DNA of 23,621 nt from a virus: the IMG/VR virus record IMGVR_UViG_3300007276_000313, positions 1 to 23,621 of that record; one strand, 5' to 3'. The stretch's first letter is position 1; each line of letters begins with the position of its first letter. Shown piece by piece: positions 4,147 through 20,786 of this stretch. The notes under the pieces are model-generated. The model saw nothing but the letters and a program-made list of their open reading frames with translations. It ran no database searches and had not been told where the DNA came from. The position numbers were made by a program, and so were the translations under genes.

Positions 4147-4180
4147 AAAAAAATCTGGTAACGTTATTTTTTACCAGATT
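4147..4180 (-). terminator. Rho-independent terminator after the groES-groEL operon
   Basis: Perfect 10-bp stem: coding-strand AATCTGGTAA (4180-4171) pairs with TTACCAGATT (4161-4152), with a 9-base loop that contains the stop codon of the preceding small gene. A run of T follows (to 4147). It should end transcription from the groE operon just before a new promoter begins. Confidence 0.75.
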
Positions 4181-4352
4181 CTTCTAAATTTTTTTCAATG
4201 TAAACTATGGCATCCATGAGTTCTTCTTGTAAATGAATCATCCATTCTTTAAATGATAAATCATTTCTCTCCATGGTAACTCCATACTTTTCTTTACCAA
4301 CCTTTGCTCTATCTAGAATCTTTTTACAGACTGAATCTTCTATTTTGCTCAT
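4164..4352 (-). CDS. Small helical protein, possibly MazG-like
   Basis: A 62-residue acidic/basic protein: KILDRAKVGKEKYGVTMERN, then EWMIHLQEELMDAIVYIEKN. The pattern of a first helix ending in KYG and a second helix with EELMDAIVYIE resembles short phage proteins of the MazG/dUTPase-like all-alpha group, whose members hydrolyse nucleotides, but the chain is short and the assignment weak. A longer frame opens at 4403, but starting at 4352 removes a 50-base overlap and leaves only one base after the upstream TAA (TAATATG). It is the last gene of the groE operon, and its stop codon lies in the loop of the terminator. Confidence 0.65.
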   Translation of the reverse strand: MSKIEDSVCKKILDRAKVGKEKYGVTMERNDLSFKEWMIHLQEELMDAIVYIEKNLEESGKK

Positions 4353-4353
4353 A

Positions 4354-4599
4354 TTAGGCTTTAGAAAGTGGTGATTCATTTTGCTTAGGTAATAATTCAT
4401 CATTTACATGACCACAATTACTACACTCAAATACTGGCATTGGTAAAAAGCTAGTATTTCCTGATGGTGAAATTGCGGCAGATACCTTTTTTAGTAATAC
4501 TACCTGTCTAAATGTTGAATTTTGACATTTATCACATATTACATCTGGTAGATCTGAAGGTGACATTCCTTTTAGTGCGTTTCCTAAATTGTTTTCCAT
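4354..4599 (-). CDS. Small zinc-ribbon protein
   Basis: An 81-residue protein with two CxxC pairs, CDKC (residues 22-25) and CSNC (about 59-62, followed by GH). They are separated by a beta-rich segment, the classic layout of a zinc ribbon that binds one Zn ion. Such small ribbons often contact nucleic acid or RNA polymerase, but the partner is unknown. AAGGAGAAATTAA precedes the ATG, giving a strong start. It follows groEL by 11 bases and precedes the small helical gene by one base, so it belongs to the groE operon. Confidence 0.72.
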   Translation of the reverse strand: MENNLGNALKGMSPSDLPDVICDKCQNSTFRQVVLLKKVSAAISPSGNTSFLPMPVFECSNCGHVNDELLPKQNESPLSKA

Positions 4600-4610
4600 T
4601 TAATTTCTCC

Positions 4611-6574
<1,964 letters not shown>

Positions 6575-9178: not shown

Positions 9179-9628
9179 TTACTTTGTTCCTGTACTTCCG
9201 AATCCACCTTCTCCACGCTTAGATGCTTTTTCGTACAAGTCTTTTGGCTCAACCTCAATAGGCATTGCATAATTCACAGGTAATAAAACAAATTGTGTTA
9301 TTTTATCGCCTTTTTCGATGATTTGTGGTTGATTACCGGCATTTGTTAAATTTAAGTGCAGTTCTCCCTGGTAATCTTCATCAACTACACATGCACCAAC
9401 GTGTAAGCTCTTTTTAACTGCTACTCCACTTTTATTAAATGCTATTAAAACATGACCTTCAGGTAAACTTACCTTGATTCCGCTTGGAATAAAGCATGAT
9501 TCTCCAGGTAATAATATTACAGTTTTAAACTCATCTGGTACAAAAAAGTCTATACCTGCACTTTGTTCTGTTCCTCTTGCTGGACTTTTTACATTTTTAA
9601 CTTTAATAAATTTTAGTTCTGAAACCAT
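9179..9628 (-). CDS. dut: dUTPase (trimeric type)
   Basis: A 149-residue deoxyuridine triphosphatase. It hydrolyses dUTP to dUMP, keeping uracil out of DNA and feeding dUMP to thymidylate synthesis. All five family motifs are visible: 1, SAGIDFF; 2, NKSGVAV (Lys in place of the usual Arg before Ser-Gly); 3, GACVVDEDYQGEL; 4, EKGDKITQFVL; and 5, the Gly-rich C-terminal arm RGEGGFGSTG that closes on the substrate. Length is normal for the homotrimeric family. The first 16 bases overlap the end of the glucosyltransferase gene, with GAGGAAATACA before the ATG, so it is the last gene of that operon. T4 uses an unrelated dCTPase-dUTPase (gp56). Confidence 0.95.
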   Translation of the reverse strand: MVSELKFIKVKNVKSPARGTEQSAGIDFFVPDEFKTVILLPGESCFIPSGIKVSLPEGHVLIAFNKSGVAVKKSLHVGACVVDEDYQGELHLNLTNAGNQPQIIEKGDKITQFVLLPVNYAMPIEVEPKDLYEKASKRGEGGFGSTGTK

Positions 9629-10788
9629 TGTATTTCCTCTACTTTTTTGTTTTGTAATTTTGATTCTACTATGTTCACAAAAGATTTATAATATTGTTCT
9701 TTTGACATTTTTTGAGTTGCGTCTTCATATTGACGTTTTATTAAATCTTCGAATGCTGCTGGATTGTCATTTAGATATTTCAATCGTACAATAACATCAT
9801 TTCTAGATTCAACATAGTTAAACTTTTGTAATAACGGGTCATTAAATATTCTCATTTGAGGGTCGTAACCTTTATCAATAAATGATACTACATTTCCTAT
9901 TATTGATTCGTTTGTTCTATTTGATATTGCAGATCCTTCGTATAACTTATCACTTATTGTTACAGTTGCTTTTGAAGTTTGCATTCTATCGAAAAATTCT
10001 CTATGTTTTACCTTTTTACTTATAAAATCTGGAAATTTTAAGTCAAGAGTTTTTTTCTTACTAAAATGTTCAGGCTTTATATTTCCAAACATTTGTACAT
10101 TAAGATGTTCTGGATAATTAAAATAGTATTCTATCATTTTTTCTTGTCTATGACCACCTCTAAATGTTCCACCATAAATTAAATCTAACCATCTATCCTC
10201 AGGTTTAACATATTCGATTGGTTGATATTCATGAATAATAAAATCTTGAAGTGGAAAATAAATAATATCGGCATATAATATTCCTCTTTTATCAAGATAT
10301 TTTGCCTGTAATGTTTCCATATTATATATTTGAGATATCATGATTATGTCTTCTCGTACAACTTCAATCTCATCTTTTGTGTATTTATTATCCCAATGGT
10401 ATTGTACTTGCTTTTTTTCAACATTAGGCCATAATTGTTGTAATGGTAATAACCAATCTGTTAGGAAATAGAAAACAGGACATGTTGACTTATTTATAAA
10501 CTTATATGCCATTAGATCTCCTCTTGCTTCTTGTCCACCATAAAAGTTTGCATTACCATTAAATACAATTAATGCATCATAGTCACTAAAAGAATTATCA
10601 GTAACTTCAGCTAGATCGTGAAATGTTGCATGTGGTAAAGGTACCATATTTCTAGTCCTTGTCGTATGATAGTGAACATCATGGCCACAATCTGCAAGCA
10701 TTTTAGTTACAACGTTTATTTCGTCGGTAAGTATACTACCGTTATTGGCATTTATAGTTGCGCCAATTTTCATAACATTTATTTTCAT
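9613..10788 (-). CDS. bgt: T4 beta-glucosyltransferase-like DNA glucosyltransferase
   Basis: A 391-residue GT-B enzyme that lines up with T4 BGT along most of its length. NANFYGG (79-85) and FYFLTDWLLPLQQLWPNV (106-123) match the T4 region holding catalytic D100, here D111. LDLIYGGTFRGGHRQEKMIE (201-220) matches the UDP-binding segment, with R210 and R214 for T4 R191 and R195. NRTNES (290-295) gives E294 for T4 E272. T4 BGT moves glucose from UDP-glucose to 5-hydroxymethylcytosine in DNA, shielding it from restriction. The gene is about 40 residues longer than T4's. It is coupled by ATGA to the DUF6378 gene, which is coupled to the dCMP hydroxymethylase-like gene, supporting a shared modification pathway. 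The exact sugar and base remain inferred. Confidence 0.88.
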   Translation of the reverse strand: MKINVMKIGATINANNGSILTDEINVVTKMLADCGHDVHYHTTRTRNMVPLPHATFHDLAEVTDNSFSDYDALIVFNGNANFYGGQEARGDLMAYKFINKSTCPVFYFLTDWLLPLQQLWPNVEKKQVQYHWDNKYTKDEIEVVREDIIMISQIYNMETLQAKYLDKRGILYADIIYFPLQDFIIHEYQPIEYVKPEDRWLDLIYGGTFRGGHRQEKMIEYYFNYPEHLNVQMFGNIKPEHFSKKKTLDLKFPDFISKKVKHREFFDRMQTSKATVTISDKLYEGSAISNRTNESIIGNVVSFIDKGYDPQMRIFNDPLLQKFNYVESRNDVIVRLKYLNDNPAAFEDLIKRQYEDATQKMSKEQYYKSFVNIVESKLQNKKVEEIQWFQN

Positions 10789-11066
10789 TTTTTATTCTCC
10801 TTTATATAATTATCAAGTGCTCCAAGATATGCTACACAATCCAATAAATTATCTTCTCTATAATTATATGAATGACGAGATAACTTTAATGCAACAAGTG
10901 CTGAGTACATATCTTCGGCTTCAAAATCTTTGCCAGTCATTCCACTTGCTATTTTTGCAGCTCTTTCCATACCTTCACTAAATGGTCCGTACAGTCTTTC
11001 TTTTTCTTCTGATCGATGATTTACAACATTATCAGCACGTTTTAGTATTGAGTCTTTCTTTTTCAT
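10785..11066 (-). CDS. DUF6378-type MazG-like protein
   Basis: A 93-residue helical protein. The pattern ILKRADNVVNHRSEEKERLYG, then MERAAKIASGMTGK, EDMYSALVALKLSR and EDNLLDCVAYLGALDNYI matches the phage DUF6378 family as I know it: R-x(n)-YG, AA-x-AS, LVALKLSR and a D-x(2)-AY helix. The fold resembles all-alpha NTP pyrophosphatases, so it may remove an unwanted nucleotide such as dCTP. That would suit a phage with modified cytosine, but the activity is unproven. It overlaps both neighbours by ATGA, placing it inside the hydroxymethylase-glucosyltransferase-dUTPase operon. Confidence 0.72.
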   Translation of the reverse strand: MKKKDSILKRADNVVNHRSEEKERLYGPFSEGMERAAKIASGMTGKDFEAEDMYSALVALKLSRHSYNYREDNLLDCVAYLGALDNYIKENKK

Positions 11067-11932
11067 ATGTGATATAATCTTTTTTTAGGTTTAAATAACT
11101 TTTGCATTTGTTTTTTTGTAAATGCCATCAATTCTAATTTAGGTAAATCTTCAGTAGGTAATTGCATATTATTTTCTTTAATATACTCTCTAGTTATCCA
11201 AGGATGAAGTTCATATGTTTCTGATGTCCATAAGTCTTGTTTATCTAAAGAAGATGCATCCATTAATATATTGTCTCTCATTTTATAGTGCATATCATAT
11301 AAGTGAAAGCTACCTGCATGGTGGTAATAAGAACCTAGTTCTAAATTAGGATATATTAATTTAAGTTCATTTAACATTAGTTGTTGAAATAGTGCAAAAT
11401 TAAACACATCATTGCAAAATCCATATATAATATCATTAGATCTCATGTTTACACCTAAATGTAATTTATTATTTCTAATAAAAAACTGTAGATATTGAGT
11501 ACAAGGCAAGTCTTTTGAATTTTTAGTTTTATGATATGGTTGATGGATTACTATTGTACAACGTCTAGAATCCTTATCATTTCTAAGTTCTTGTAATATC
11601 CAATCCCATTGTTTACCAAGAATATAACTACCATAGTTTGATTCTACTTCGTTTTGTTCATCTTGTATTTTTAACCAAATATTTGCACATTTTCCAATAT
11701 TATTTGTTTTCTTATGGCTTGAAAGATACCATAAAAATTCTAATACTGAGTATGCAGGATTAAATTTTCTTGATGGATGTGCAATGGCTAATTGTGTTGG
11801 ATTAGTTATGCACATAGACCTAAATAAAAGTTCTGTTTGTTTTGTTCCGTTACTCTCTACTTGTAATCCGAAACCTGATAGTGCTTGCAATTCCGATTGA
11901 AAGCATGTGTGTAAATTTTTAAATTCATTCAT
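11063..11932 (-). CDS. gp42: Thymidylate-synthase-family protein, probable dCMP hydroxymethylase (T4 gp42-like)
   Basis: A 289-residue TS-fold enzyme. Catalytic Cys is C144 (PCT), the phosphate-binding arginines are R123-R124 (DSRRC), and RSND (164-167), E65 and H210-x-Y212 fit the family. In GFCND (171-175) the residue that is Asn in thymidylate synthases, where it reads dUMP, is Asp175, as in T4 dCMP hydroxymethylase (GFRND). That predicts dCMP as substrate and 5-hydroxymethyl-dCMP as product, using methylene-tetrahydrofolate. The neighbouring glucosyltransferase agrees. No Shine-Dalgarno site is seen; a GGTCA-N11-TATATT promoter sits six bases before the ATG, so the message may be leaderless. 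The alternative is an atypical thymidylate synthase. Confidence 0.84.
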   Translation of the reverse strand: MNEFKNLHTCFQSELQALSGFGLQVESNGTKQTELLFRSMCITNPTQLAIAHPSRKFNPAYSVLEFLWYLSSHKKTNNIGKCANIWLKIQDEQNEVESNYGSYILGKQWDWILQELRNDKDSRRCTIVIHQPYHKTKNSKDLPCTQYLQFFIRNNKLHLGVNMRSNDIIYGFCNDVFNFALFQQLMLNELKLIYPNLELGSYYHHAGSFHLYDMHYKMRDNILMDASSLDKQDLWTSETYELHPWITREYIKENNMQLPTEDLPKLELMAFTKKQMQKLFKPKKRLYHI

Positions 11933-11936
11933 ATAG

Positions 11937-12926
11937 TTAATATAATAAATTTTCTTGACCTGGAAAAATTATTTTATGGTTTTTTTCATCATCACTATAA
12001 TATTCTATAAGAGAATTACAGCGTCTAATTACGTGGCCAAAGCCAATAGAATTATTCCATTCTGAACATTTTCCAAGCAGATCTATTCCTGAAACCTTTT
12101 GTATTCCTAGTGTATTTGTTATTTGTGATTCTTCAATATATTCATTAACCGTGTTATTTTCAATTTTATCTTCAAATATTTGTTTCAATGACTCATAAAC
12201 TACACTACCATTATAAAAGGTTTTTCTAAACCATGGTTTTCCAACAGTTGCTATTTGGTCAAATAATTTTGATATTTGAATGTCATTTTCGTTTTCTAAC
12301 TTACACTTGTATATGTATTTGTCTATCACAGGTAAAGTAAATTTTGTACCAGGTGCATAATTTTGTTCTATATTACCTTTAAGTATATTATTTGAGTCTA
12401 GACTGATTAACTTGGTTAATCCAGAAGTAAACAATAGTTTGTCATAAACATATTCCTTATCATCTGATAACTTAATTAGTTTATTCACAACGTCAATACT
12501 TGCAATATCAATGAATTCACACTTGTGCGCAGTTAATTTTTCTAGTTCTTCAAACAATATTATTAGTGAATTAAAGGGAGATTCTCCATTAATTGATACA
12601 ACTTCTAATGTCTCAGAAATAGTTCTAAGATATTCTTTTTCAACATTGGTTTTTCCTCTTGTATATAGTGTATATATTTGATCGAAATTTTTAGGCTTTA
12701 CAGCAGACAAAGTCTTGCGCATATCATACATTGTTCTCATTTCATACTTGGTAATGTTGGCTCCAGGAAAAACTAACTTTACAAAGTCAATACAATAATA
12801 TGGAATATATGATGTTTCAATGTTCCATATGTCTAAATCTCGCTCAAGTGGTTTGATATGTTTTACACTTGGTAAAAGATACGCTGCCATTGTTGCAACT
12901 AAATTATTTCCTATAACATATTTCAT
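11937..12926 (-). CDS. Possible FAD-dependent protein, divergent
   Basis: A 329-residue protein I do not firmly recognise. The start KYVIGNNLVATMAAYLLP resembles a Rossmann strand with an aberrant glycine-rich loop (GNNLVATMAAY in place of GxGxxGxxAA). The C-terminal stretch VSGIDLLGKCSEWNNSIGFG looks like the FAD-closing segment of amine-oxidase or UDP-galactopyranose-mutase-like enzymes (...GR.AxWN...). The middle is poorly conserved in pattern. Its stop lies four bases before the dCMP hydroxymethylase-like gene, and its 3' end contains that gene's promoter. The start overlaps the zinc-binding gene by ATGA. A role in base modification or folate chemistry is a guess from position. Confidence 0.5.
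   Translation of the reverse strand: MKYVIGNNLVATMAAYLLPSVKHIKPLERDLDIWNIETSYIPYYCIDFVKLVFPGANITKYEMRTMYDMRKTLSAVKPKNFDQIYTLYTRGKTNVEKEYLRTISETLEVVSINGESPFNSLIILFEELEKLTAHKCEFIDIASIDVVNKLIKLSDDKEYVYDKLLFTSGLTKLISLDSNNILKGNIEQNYAPGTKFTLPVIDKYIYKCKLENENDIQISKLFDQIATVGKPWFRKTFYNGSVVYESLKQIFEDKIENNTVNEYIEESQITNTLGIQKVSGIDLLGKCSEWNNSIGFGHVIRRCNSLIEYYSDDEKNHKIIFPGQENLLY
11939..11960 (-). promoter_or_regulatory. Middle-type promoter (GGTCA-N11-TATATT) for dCMP hydroxymethylase-like gene
   Basis: GGTCA at 11960-11956 and TATATT at 11944-11939 on the coding strand, 11 bases apart. It lies inside the last codons of the upstream gene. The expected start is at or within a base of the ATG at 11932. Confidence 0.5.
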
Positions 12927-13120: not shown

Positions 13121-13196
13121 GGTTTTTCTCCATATTTTTTTGAGCAACCATTTCCTTATAATACAAATCAACTATCCAATCATTATGTGATTTCAC
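13038..13196 (-). CDS. Small lysine-rich protein, GTG start, overlapping nrdJ
   Basis: A 52-codon frame beginning VKSHNDWIVDLYYKEMVAQK and ending in a Lys/Arg-rich tail. It starts with GTG five bases after a perfect AGGAGG (13207-13202) located in the last codons of nrdJ, so translation would be coupled to that gene. The first 16 residues are amphipathic with four aromatics; the tail (residues 31-50) is highly basic and may bind nucleic acid. It overlaps the zinc-binding-like gene in another frame. Evidence is the unusually good ribosome site plus the non-random N-terminus. Function unknown. Confidence 0.5.
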   Translation of the reverse strand: MKSHNDWIVDLYYKEMVAQKNMEKNHEQHSKPTKKTKGTSRRNKKVSAKLPT

Positions 13197-15042
13197 AACT
13201 TCCTCCTGCACATGCTAATTCACCACTTAAATCTGTATTGTCTTCTATTTCTATAACATTTGATAAGTCTACTGTATGTAGGGACTTCATCATTTCATTA
13301 TATTTTTCTTCAGTAATATCTTCAAATGGAGCTTGTGTATATGTTCCACCATCATATGGTAACACAGATAATCCATTATAATCGTTTCTATTGTTCCACA
13401 TCCATTCTCCGGCCAATTCCCAATCTTCTTTCTTTAAACTTATAGTAGCTGATACATTGTGAGAATTAGAGCCTTTTCTATGACCAGGTTTTACCCATTC
13501 TGTTGCTACCTTTTTTACTCGTTCTAACAATTGGAATGGAGATTCTGTTCTCATTATTGAGCCTACTGGCGCCTTTTGAGGAACTTGAATTACAGCAGTA
13601 TCATGAGGTCTAAAATATTCATCTTCTACTAATTCTGGGTGATTTGACTTTAGGTGCTGATATATAGATTCATTTTTACCAACTCTAATTCTACGAATAT
13701 AAAAGTCATTATGCCATGCATGAATACCTGAACTTGTACCTAATACTAAGGATGTTGTTCCTGCAGGTTTTACGGTTGTTGTTCTTGCAGATTGATTTAT
13801 ACCTATAATTTTAGCAACTCTTGTATTTTCTCTCTTAACAACACTTGCAGCTTTTTTCATATCATATCCAAGTACAACTCCTGAACCAATACCTGTCATT
13901 GACACTCCAATTAGTGCTTCTTTTTCGGTTGTTTCTCTCCATACATCCCTAAGATAATGAAAATCAGTATATCCAGCTTGTAGTGTTCCTATAAATGCAG
14001 CTACTTTGACTCTTTCATTTAGATCTTCTTGTGATTCTATATTAGATACATTTACTTCACAAAGATTACAAAATTGATGAGGTCTTAACGCGATTTCACA
14101 ACATGGATTTGTACCCCAATCCTTATCATTATTTAGATAAATACCAGGTTCACCAGCTCCTGATAATTCTACACGTTTCCATATGTCCATAAAAAATTCC
14201 TTTGTTATTTTATGTCTCATTAGAACTGCTGAATTATTAGCTCTACCTCTTTGTGGATTTAATTCCCACCAATTACCAGATTTACAACTAATCATTTGGT
14301 CATCATCAGCATTAAATAAACTAATTAGTGCTGCTCTTCTGATGCCACCTGCTAACACTGCATCTGCAATATAACATATAATATCATGAGCTTCAAGGGT
14401 TGTTAATTGTTCTCCTGTTTCCTTTGATTCTAATATACCTTTAACTTTAAGTATACATTCCTTTAATGGCTGAGGACCTGGAGCTTTACCACCTGATGTT
14501 ACAAGTTGTGCACCTTTAGGTCTTACATCTGAATAATCAAATTCTATCTTACTACCTCCACCATTCATGTATGATTTCATTAAAACTTTTACTGCATCTG
14601 CCCAGCCTTCAATAGAGTCTCCTATTAAAAATCTCTTTTTTCTTTTTGGCCAAGGTTTCTGTATGCAGGGTAGCTTTTCAACATGGTGTCGTTGTACTGA
14701 GTATCCAACTCCTGTTCCACCTAACAATAAAAACATTGTTTCTGAAAATGCATCAATTGAGTCTATTGGAAGATATGCACAATTATATATTCTATTTGGA
14801 GATATTTCAATTGGCTTACCACCAAATTGCAGGCTTCTCATTGATGGAAGTACTTTTTTATCGTATACTAGTTTATATTTTTGTTCTATTTCATCTGCTA
14901 GTTGTGGAAACTTCTTTTTGTGCATTTCTTTATTTCTAGTAACTAGTTCTTCCCACGTTTCTCGTCTATTTAATTCTGGTACGTATTTTGCGTACTTCAT
15001 GTACACAGTAATTTCCGATAATATTTGATTTGATACTTCCAT
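13183..15042 (-). CDS. nrdJ: Class II (cobalamin-dependent) monomeric ribonucleotide reductase
   Basis: A 619-residue reductase related to the monomeric Lactobacillus-type RTPR. MRSLQFGG, NRIYNCAYLP (C88) and LLLGGTGVGYSVQ occur at the N-terminus. The active-site strand NPCCEI has N312, C314 (thiyl radical) and E316. C325, eleven residues after C314, is the redox partner of C88. C611 and C616 at the C-terminal end (ACAGGSCEIT) are the shuttle cysteines that re-reduce the site. No small radical subunit is needed, but adenosylcobalamin is, so the host must have or import B12. The chain is shorter than RTPR (739). An AAAGGAG site precedes the ATG, and an 18-base hairpin lies in the leader. It supplies deoxynucleotides for replication; T4 uses class I enzymes instead. 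Confidence 0.94.
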   Translation of the reverse strand: MEVSNQILSEITVYMKYAKYVPELNRRETWEELVTRNKEMHKKKFPQLADEIEQKYKLVYDKKVLPSMRSLQFGGKPIEISPNRIYNCAYLPIDSIDAFSETMFLLLGGTGVGYSVQRHHVEKLPCIQKPWPKRKKRFLIGDSIEGWADAVKVLMKSYMNGGGSKIEFDYSDVRPKGAQLVTSGGKAPGPQPLKECILKVKGILESKETGEQLTTLEAHDIICYIADAVLAGGIRRAALISLFNADDDQMISCKSGNWWELNPQRGRANNSAVLMRHKITKEFFMDIWKRVELSGAGEPGIYLNNDKDWGTNPCCEIALRPHQFCNLCEVNVSNIESQEDLNERVKVAAFIGTLQAGYTDFHYLRDVWRETTEKEALIGVSMTGIGSGVVLGYDMKKAASVVKRENTRVAKIIGINQSARTTTVKPAGTTSLVLGTSSGIHAWHNDFYIRRIRVGKNESIYQHLKSNHPELVEDEYFRPHDTAVIQVPQKAPVGSIMRTESPFQLLERVKKVATEWVKPGHRKGSNSHNVSATISLKKEDWELAGEWMWNNRNDYNGLSVLPYDGGTYTQAPFEDITEEKYNEMMKSLHTVDLSNVIEIEDNTDLSGELACAGGSCEIT

Positions 15043-19759: not shown

Positions 19760-19781
19760 AATATATAAAAAAATTCTAACA
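19760..19781 (-). promoter_or_regulatory. Middle-type promoter (TGTTA-N11-TATATT) for gp32
   Basis: TGTTA at 19781-19777, formed by the last Cys codon and stop of the UV endonuclease gene, then 11 bases and TATATT at 19765-19760. Expected leader is about 26 bases with an AGAGGA site. Confidence 0.5.
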
Positions 19782-20786
19782 TGGTAAAACTTCTGTTAAA
19801 ATATTTTTCTTTTCCATAAAAGCTAATTCCTTAGCTTTTGCTTCGACTACAACGTCGATATCTAGACCATAATCATTGATTTCTTCTACAATATAATCAG
19901 AGTGAGCTTGTACTTTTATCTTGCTGAATTCTTTGTACATTGTAGCAAGTGTTGGAAAGTCTTGCATTTGGTCTATTGTTATATTATTGTTTTTGCAAAT
20001 TTGCTCGACAATAAGTTTTTGTTCTGCACGTCTTGATTCTGAATAATGTGTACAAGGTTTTATATCACCCCATGTAGAAGCTGCAAGTTTTAGTGCTTCT
20101 TCTTCTGTCATATCACCTGTGCAAAACTTGTGATGGAAGTAGTCGAATACAATAGGTATACCAACTACTTTGTATACACCATCATATAAATCTTTGACAG
20201 AGTACATGTTTGCTTTATCATCGTTTTCGACAGTTAGACGTGCTTGTGCTGATGGTTGCAATCTTAAGAAGTTTTTACAAAATCTATCTAGTGCAGACTT
20301 TTTATCACCATATGCACCGCCAACATGTATGTTAATTTTTGCCATACGAGACTTTGGTAAACCCATAAGATCCATAATTTGTGCAGATTTATCTAGTTCA
20401 TTCATTGCATTTAGTACTACATTTTCGTTTGGTGAAGCTAGTACACAAAATTGACCTGGATGAAATGATAGTCGTTGACCATTATCCATTGCCAATTTGC
20501 CGATGCCCTTTAGTAAATTACAAATTTTGTCATAGTCTGGTAAATCTGTAAGTTCGTATTCTGACATCCATGGAAACATGTTACTTGACATGCGATAGAC
20601 TTTAATTCCATTTTGATTATTCCAACTTATTACTTTTGTTAAATTTCGTAAGTTTTCCAATATTAATTCTGATGCATACTCTGGACCTTTTGCTTGAAAG
20701 GTTCTACGTATCATACTTCTGTTGCATGATATGCCTTGCTTTGCAAGTGTCATATTTATACATGCGTATCCTAGTTGTTTTGCCAT
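19776..20786 (-). CDS. uvsE: UV damage endonuclease (UvsE/UVDE)
   Basis: A 336-residue TIM-barrel nuclease that cuts 5' of pyrimidine dimers and other distortions. Metal-binding motifs are visible in order: SFHPGQF (H109), NIHVGGAYGDK (H154), TVENDD (E187), FDYFHH (D215, H218), then CTHYSESR and QAHSDY with further histidines. The N-terminal GYACINMTL is also typical. T4 instead repairs dimers with the unrelated DenV, so this is a different solution, fitting a sunlit environment. The gene has a middle-type promoter 18 bases upstream, a short leader and no Shine-Dalgarno site. Confidence 0.95.
   Translation of the reverse strand: MAKQLGYACINMTLAKQGISCNRSMIRRTFQAKGPEYASELILENLRNLTKVISWNNQNGIKVYRMSSNMFPWMSEYELTDLPDYDKICNLLKGIGKLAMDNGQRLSFHPGQFCVLASPNENVVLNAMNELDKSAQIMDLMGLPKSRMAKINIHVGGAYGDKKSALDRFCKNFLRLQPSAQARLTVENDDKANMYSVKDLYDGVYKVVGIPIVFDYFHHKFCTGDMTEEEALKLAASTWGDIKPCTHYSESRRAEQKLIVEQICKNNNITIDQMQDFPTLATMYKEFSKIKVQAHSDYIVEEINDYGLDIDVVVEAKAKELAFMEKKNILTEVLPC

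Follow-up and report, generated by a model that had tools for sequence, protein, structure and literature searches.

Does an uncultivated virus from a lineage far from T4 carry glucosylated 5-hydroxymethylcytosine (hmC) in its DNA? The question is raised by three minus-strand open reading frames in record IMGVR_UViG_3300007276_000313, all 23,621 bases of which are referred to here as the window. They encode a thymidylate synthase (TS)-family enzyme, a DUF6378 protein, and a homologue of the T4 DNA β-glucosyltransferase (BGT) (Table 1). The coupling of the three genes by ATGA overlaps, proposed in an earlier sequence-only reading, is confirmed at both junctions, 11063–11066 (TS-family/DUF6378) and 10785–10788 (DUF6378/BGT). 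The pairing of a dCMP hydroxymethylase with an hmC β-glucosyltransferase put forward in the same reading has strong support from its residues, from homology, and from recurrent linkage of the genes, and the operon very probably makes β-glucosyl-5-hydroxymethylcytosine DNA, as in T4.

Table 1. Genes of the predicted modification cluster and further features of the window.
Feature	Position (strand)	Matches and remarks
Small protein with EE..D motif (HLQEELMDAIVYIEK)	4164..4403 (-)	Motif read from sequence
dUTPase, trimeric type	9179..9628 (-)	TIGR00576 1.3e-30
DNA β-glucosyltransferase, T4 β-GT homologue	9613..10788 (-)	PHROG 7922 5.1e-54; PDB 1bgt 3.7e-39
DUF6378 protein, 93 aa	10785..11066 (-)	PF19905 3.2e-9
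TS-family enzyme, predicted dCMP 5-hydroxymethylase	11063..11932 (-)	PF00303 3.8e-17; catalytic Cys144, specificity Asp175
ORF329, clade-specific protein	11937..12926 (-)	Present in 16 related loci
Ribonucleotide reductase, B12-type insertion domain	13183..15042 (-)	PHROG 367 4.6e-135; PF21995 3.6e-6; upstream of cluster

The cluster lies in a gene run of ribonucleotide reductase, an 82-aa ORF, ORF329, hydroxymethylase, DUF6378, BGT, dUTPase, family-B DNA polymerase, GroES, and GroEL. The dUTPase gene overlaps the BGT gene by 16 bp and is likely part of the same operon, serving as nucleotide-pool support. T4-type replication genes are found elsewhere in the window (UvsX/RecA, DnaB-type helicase, 5'-3' exonuclease, gp32, and a PD-(D/E)XK nuclease), and the phage replication region also holds a homologue of the UV-damage endonuclease UvdE (19776–20786). 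The abutting GroEL and GroES genes (4611–6281 and 6281–6574) are named from sequence and from comparison of GroEL with phage proteins. A nucleotide search of the window against phage records returns no relative; a 61,953-base contig (G001) is 99.9% identical to the window over 21.5 kb. Gene order is conserved in relatives at protein identities of 68–100%, and dN/dS values of ~0.05–0.2 indicate purifying selection. Thus, the three-gene arrangement is not a product of chance.

The TS-family enzyme finds its best PDB matches in the CMP hydroxymethylase MilA (6e-20) and the T4 dCMP hydroxymethylase gp42 (6.5e-19), while the best true TS follows at 6e-12. As the sequence-only reading had claimed, it carries Asp at the specificity site, where D175 aligns with N177 of Escherichia coli ThyA and D179 of gp42. 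The residue is Asp in 40/40 BGT-linked homologues, a set of loci that includes some near-duplicates, and Asn in both ThyA and the dUMP hydroxymethylase gp29 of SPO1. Since gp29 is itself a hydroxymethylase, the site separates substrates and not merely reaction types, in line with the reported association of Asp at this position with cytosine substrates (PMC5175136). Together with position 147, Asp177 has been tied to modified-cytosine contigs (PMC8670742), and the window enzyme has Asp and Thr at these two positions, matching gp42. The catalytic set is kept (E58, Y94, R126, C146, R166, H207, and Y209 in E. coli numbering), although the enzyme as a whole is only ~30% identical to gp42. Asp is also common to CMP hydroxymethylases, an identity against which the sequence argues: Ser165 and Arg123/Arg124, changed at the same positions in the ribo-specific MilA, are kept here, which points to a deoxy-substrate rather than to the CMP preference of MilA.

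A hydroxymethylase lies within 10 kb of the BGT in 32 of 38 distinct BGT loci, and four of the remaining six carry a D-type homologue elsewhere in the record. Six BGT phages encode a canonical TS (316–355 bits to PF00303) beside a divergent copy (48–88 bits); Asn occupies the specificity site in each of the six canonical copies, while the divergent copies have Asp and a CT active-site context. The window enzyme scores 62.8 bits.

Besides the matches in Table 1, where the PHROG 7922 homology spans residues 1–370 and thus the whole enzyme, the BGT matches PF09198 (5.9e-20). The earlier assignment of Asp100, Arg191/195, and Glu272 equivalents holds: T4 E22, D100, R191, R195, R269, and E272 correspond to E23, D111, R210, R214, R291, and E294 of the window, and all six are identical in nine close relatives. 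E272 is not universal, as the BGT of the uncultured jumbo phage LR756500 has Gln in its place. Overall identity to T4 BGT is ~28–29%, and local substitutions in the vicinity of the active site, with W, L, and H in place of T4 I101, R102, and M240, indicate that acceptor or sugar could differ from T4. In the BGT tree, the window groups with large environmental phages, apart from T4 and the Enterococcus phages; several branches are long, so that the finer placement is unsure.

How far do these data separate a dCMP hydroxymethylase from related enzymes? In RB69-type phages, a homologous enzyme makes 5-hydroxy-dCMP (PMC13390438), and RB69 ORF048c likewise has Asp at the specificity site, so that Asp alone leaves the product undecided. 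An RB69-like synthase in the window, with the glycosyltransferase adding sugar directly to the ring oxygen, is nevertheless very unlikely. W86, D167, G171, and Y212 (W80, D169, G173, and Y209 in E. coli) are kept in the window enzyme and in 15/15 hydroxymethylase-like sequences but are changed to A, N, V, and F in RB69 ORF048c; this discrimination, which favours a folate-dependent reaction, is drawn from a single RB69 sequence whose designation as a synthase follows from position and annotation. Moreover, RB69 has no BGT annotated beside the enzyme, between uvsX and gene 43, the location of T4 beta-gt. What the Mosigvirus 5-hydroxycytosine arabinosylation system shares with the window is the Asp-bearing TS-family enzyme and a sugar on cytosine.

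An ordinary thymidylate synthase or dUMP hydroxymethylase, next to a BGT with another target, would account for the PF00303 membership and for the lack of a separate TS gene in the window and G001. We regard it as highly improbable, given Asp rather than Asn, PCT in place of PCH or PCN, an MRSN context as in the BGT-linked homologues, and a bit score far below that of the true TS genes of BGT phages. The chance that the enzyme is a dCMP methylase forming 5-methylcytosine, as in phage Xp12, while the transferase glycosylates another target, is slimmer again. Asp at 177 by itself turns TS into a dCMP methylase, according to literature cited in PMC8670742; yet the gene is tightly coupled to a BGT, an enzyme needing a hydroxyl acceptor, and the best PDB matches are hydroxymethylases. 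The residue alignments drew on thymidylate synthase, hydroxymethylases, and the RB69 enzyme. On balance, the sequence favours assignment of the window protein as a folate-dependent dCMP hydroxymethylase.

In the proposed pathway, this enzyme would place a hydroxymethyl group on dCMP via methylene-tetrahydrofolate, with substrate and product as predicted from its residues. A kinase not seen within the sequence sampled would take the first step from hmdCMP to the triphosphate, which the family-B polymerase of the phage would incorporate. The BGT would then move glucose from UDP-glucose onto the DNA hydroxyl, as its completely retained T4 active site suggests. Such a modification probably serves to hide the phage genome from nucleases of the host.

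Between the two pathway genes lies the DUF6378 protein, which the sequence-only reading had described as MazG-like and as a possible dCTP-destroying substitute for T4 gp56. Its family membership is real, with a PF19905 match above the gathering score, while the MazG label is unsupported by sequence, motif, and fold. In place of the acidic ExxE...ExxD metal motif, which is not present, the protein has a conserved KxxR...(E)DNxxDxxxY motif; KxxR...DNxxD is largely retained in Escherichia and Pectobacterium phage homologues, and K, R, and the last D persist in distant DUF6378 proteins. A PDB sequence search gives no match, and the all-helical model of moderate quality (pLDDT 66.8) retrieves only DUF6378 proteins with Foldseek, without a significant PDB match. 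In PHROG, DUF6378 relatives bear the name “phosphofructokinase”, which we set aside as a mislabelled family.

The protein is 85–97% identical across the clade and more conserved than its neighbours: relative to locus L052, identity is 86% for DUF6378 and 60% for BGT. Conservation at this level suggests that the protein contributes to the operon. Among 20 phage records with a BGT or its kin, DUF6378 is present in two, both of the window's clade, and absent from 18; elsewhere it occurs in small phages beside methylase genes. DUF6378 is read as a dedicated partner of the hydroxymethylase/BGT pair in this clade. Destruction of dCTP in place of gp56 would be compatible with the main explanation, and the ATGA coupling between both pathway genes, the high conservation, and the lack of a T4-type gp56 in the window, G001, and relatives speak for it. 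However, neither motif nor structure gives positive support, hhalign connects DUF6378 with neither gp56 nor an Nmad1-type protein, the family also accompanies methylase genes, and the small protein at 4164–4403 carries a more typical EE..D motif; we therefore consider this role unlikely. Less likely still is that DUF6378 is a new enzyme or carrier for the hmC pathway, acting for example in dCTP removal or in handing on hmdCMP and replacing gp56 or a thymidylate-kinase-like kinase, which would make the operon a distinct variant of the pathway. The 4164–4403 protein, with matches to the unnamed PHROG families 17558, 23240, and 11184 and none in Pfam, is a candidate NTP pyrophosphohydrolase-like enzyme and as such an alternative for dCTP removal.

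A search for an hmdCMP kinase, which the sequence-only reading had suggested, returns none in the window or the near-identical 62-kb G001, an incomplete genome. Likewise, no T4 gp1 kinase or gp56 dCTPase is found in these or in relatives, and no T4 α-GT or thymidylate-kinase-like protein in the window's clade, all of them partial records. Most non-T4 BGT phages, by comparison, have a thymidylate-kinase-like gene near the BGT or hydroxymethylase. Of the 38 distinct loci, 21 have it within 10 kb of the BGT, and in 12 no more than 60 bp separate it from BGT or hydroxymethylase; three further records have it near the hydroxymethylase, at a distance of 213 bp in G009. As judged by linkage alone, the thymidylate-kinase-like protein makes a good hmdCMP kinase candidate for phages without T4 gp1. 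Such P-loop genes neighbour BGT or hydroxymethylase in L053, L056, L063, L068, L069, L072, L076, L079, L088, L025, and L026. A CofD-like gene is located between BGT and hydroxymethylase in L053 (11107–13044), and another ~3.6 kb upstream of the hydroxymethylase in L025 (7265–9103).

ORF329 lies 4 bp upstream of the hydroxymethylase gene and is strongly conserved (dN/dS 0.06–0.21), with no detectable relative outside the clade and no Pfam, PHROG, or phage match. It is absent from L052 and can thus be accessory at most. A second glycosyltransferase, like those neighbouring the genes in CC31 or VPE25, was considered for ORF329 and rejected for lack of a match; nor did comparison with UDP-galactopyranose mutase yield anything. 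Flavoprotein-type matches are weak (3vrd, E 0.21; HcaD, E 0.18) and by themselves do not lead us to assert such an identity, and the AF2 model is of low confidence (pLDDT 33.8).

Compared with T4, the window has homologues of both the dCMP hydroxymethylase and the BGT, identical in their catalytic residues and encoded by neighbouring genes beside replication genes (polymerase, UvsX, helicase, and gp32). In contrast to T4, DUF6378 separates the two genes, the dUTPase is of the trimeric type, the BGT belongs to a separate environmental clade, and the partial genome yields no T4-type gp1 or gp56. The Enterococcus phage VPE25/VFW cluster (L026) likewise combines an Asp-type TS-family enzyme, dUTPase, and BGT in a single gene run, but has a thymidylate-kinase-like gene immediately upstream, a DNA polymerase III alpha-type polymerase, and no DUF6378 adjoining the pair. 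LR756500.1 and the large environmental BGT phages (L053–L076, L088) contain the nearest BGT relatives outside the clade, with a D-type hydroxymethylase nearby. Here, however, the genes are spread over up to 9 kb, a thymidylate-kinase-like gene lies near BGT or hydroxymethylase, and the records searched contain no DUF6378.

Two features suggest a Bacteroidota host: G001 encodes a 1127-aa protein (42720–46103; L034:2720–6103) carrying a C-terminal sorting domain for type IX secretion (PF18962, 3.9e-11), and the closest phage GroEL by coverage is that of a Flavobacterium phage (53.7%). On this sequence evidence, the host is probably a member of the Bacteroidota. Literature searches returned no report of the pathway in Bacteroidota phages, which, at partial coverage, weighs little. 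G001 also codes for an 822-aa phage protein that combines GT2, GT11, and GT10 fucosyltransferase domains on a single polypeptide (24285–26753; L033:4285–6753), with GDP-mannose dehydratase and epimerase nearby, possibly forming a phage-encoded fucose glycan pathway. Within the sugar gene cluster, transketolase is encoded as two adjacent genes (27629–29265; L033:7629–9265).

The operon adds a new and divergent example to a well-known pathway, found in a lineage distant from T4; the broader occurrence of BGT together with a kinase-like partner is more informative. For phages that lack T4 gp1, the comparison provides a thymidylate-kinase-like hmdCMP kinase candidate, and it opens a further source of β-glucosyltransferases, a reagent in wide use. 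If the prediction is correct, glucosylated hydroxymethylcytosine would extend beyond the T-even and a few Gram-positive phages to uncultivated, probably Bacteroidota phages and to many large environmental phages. By analogy with T4, resistance to restriction or CRISPR can reasonably be inferred: such phages would be expected to withstand many restriction enzymes and some CRISPR systems. Methods requiring unmodified DNA may sample their genomes too sparsely.
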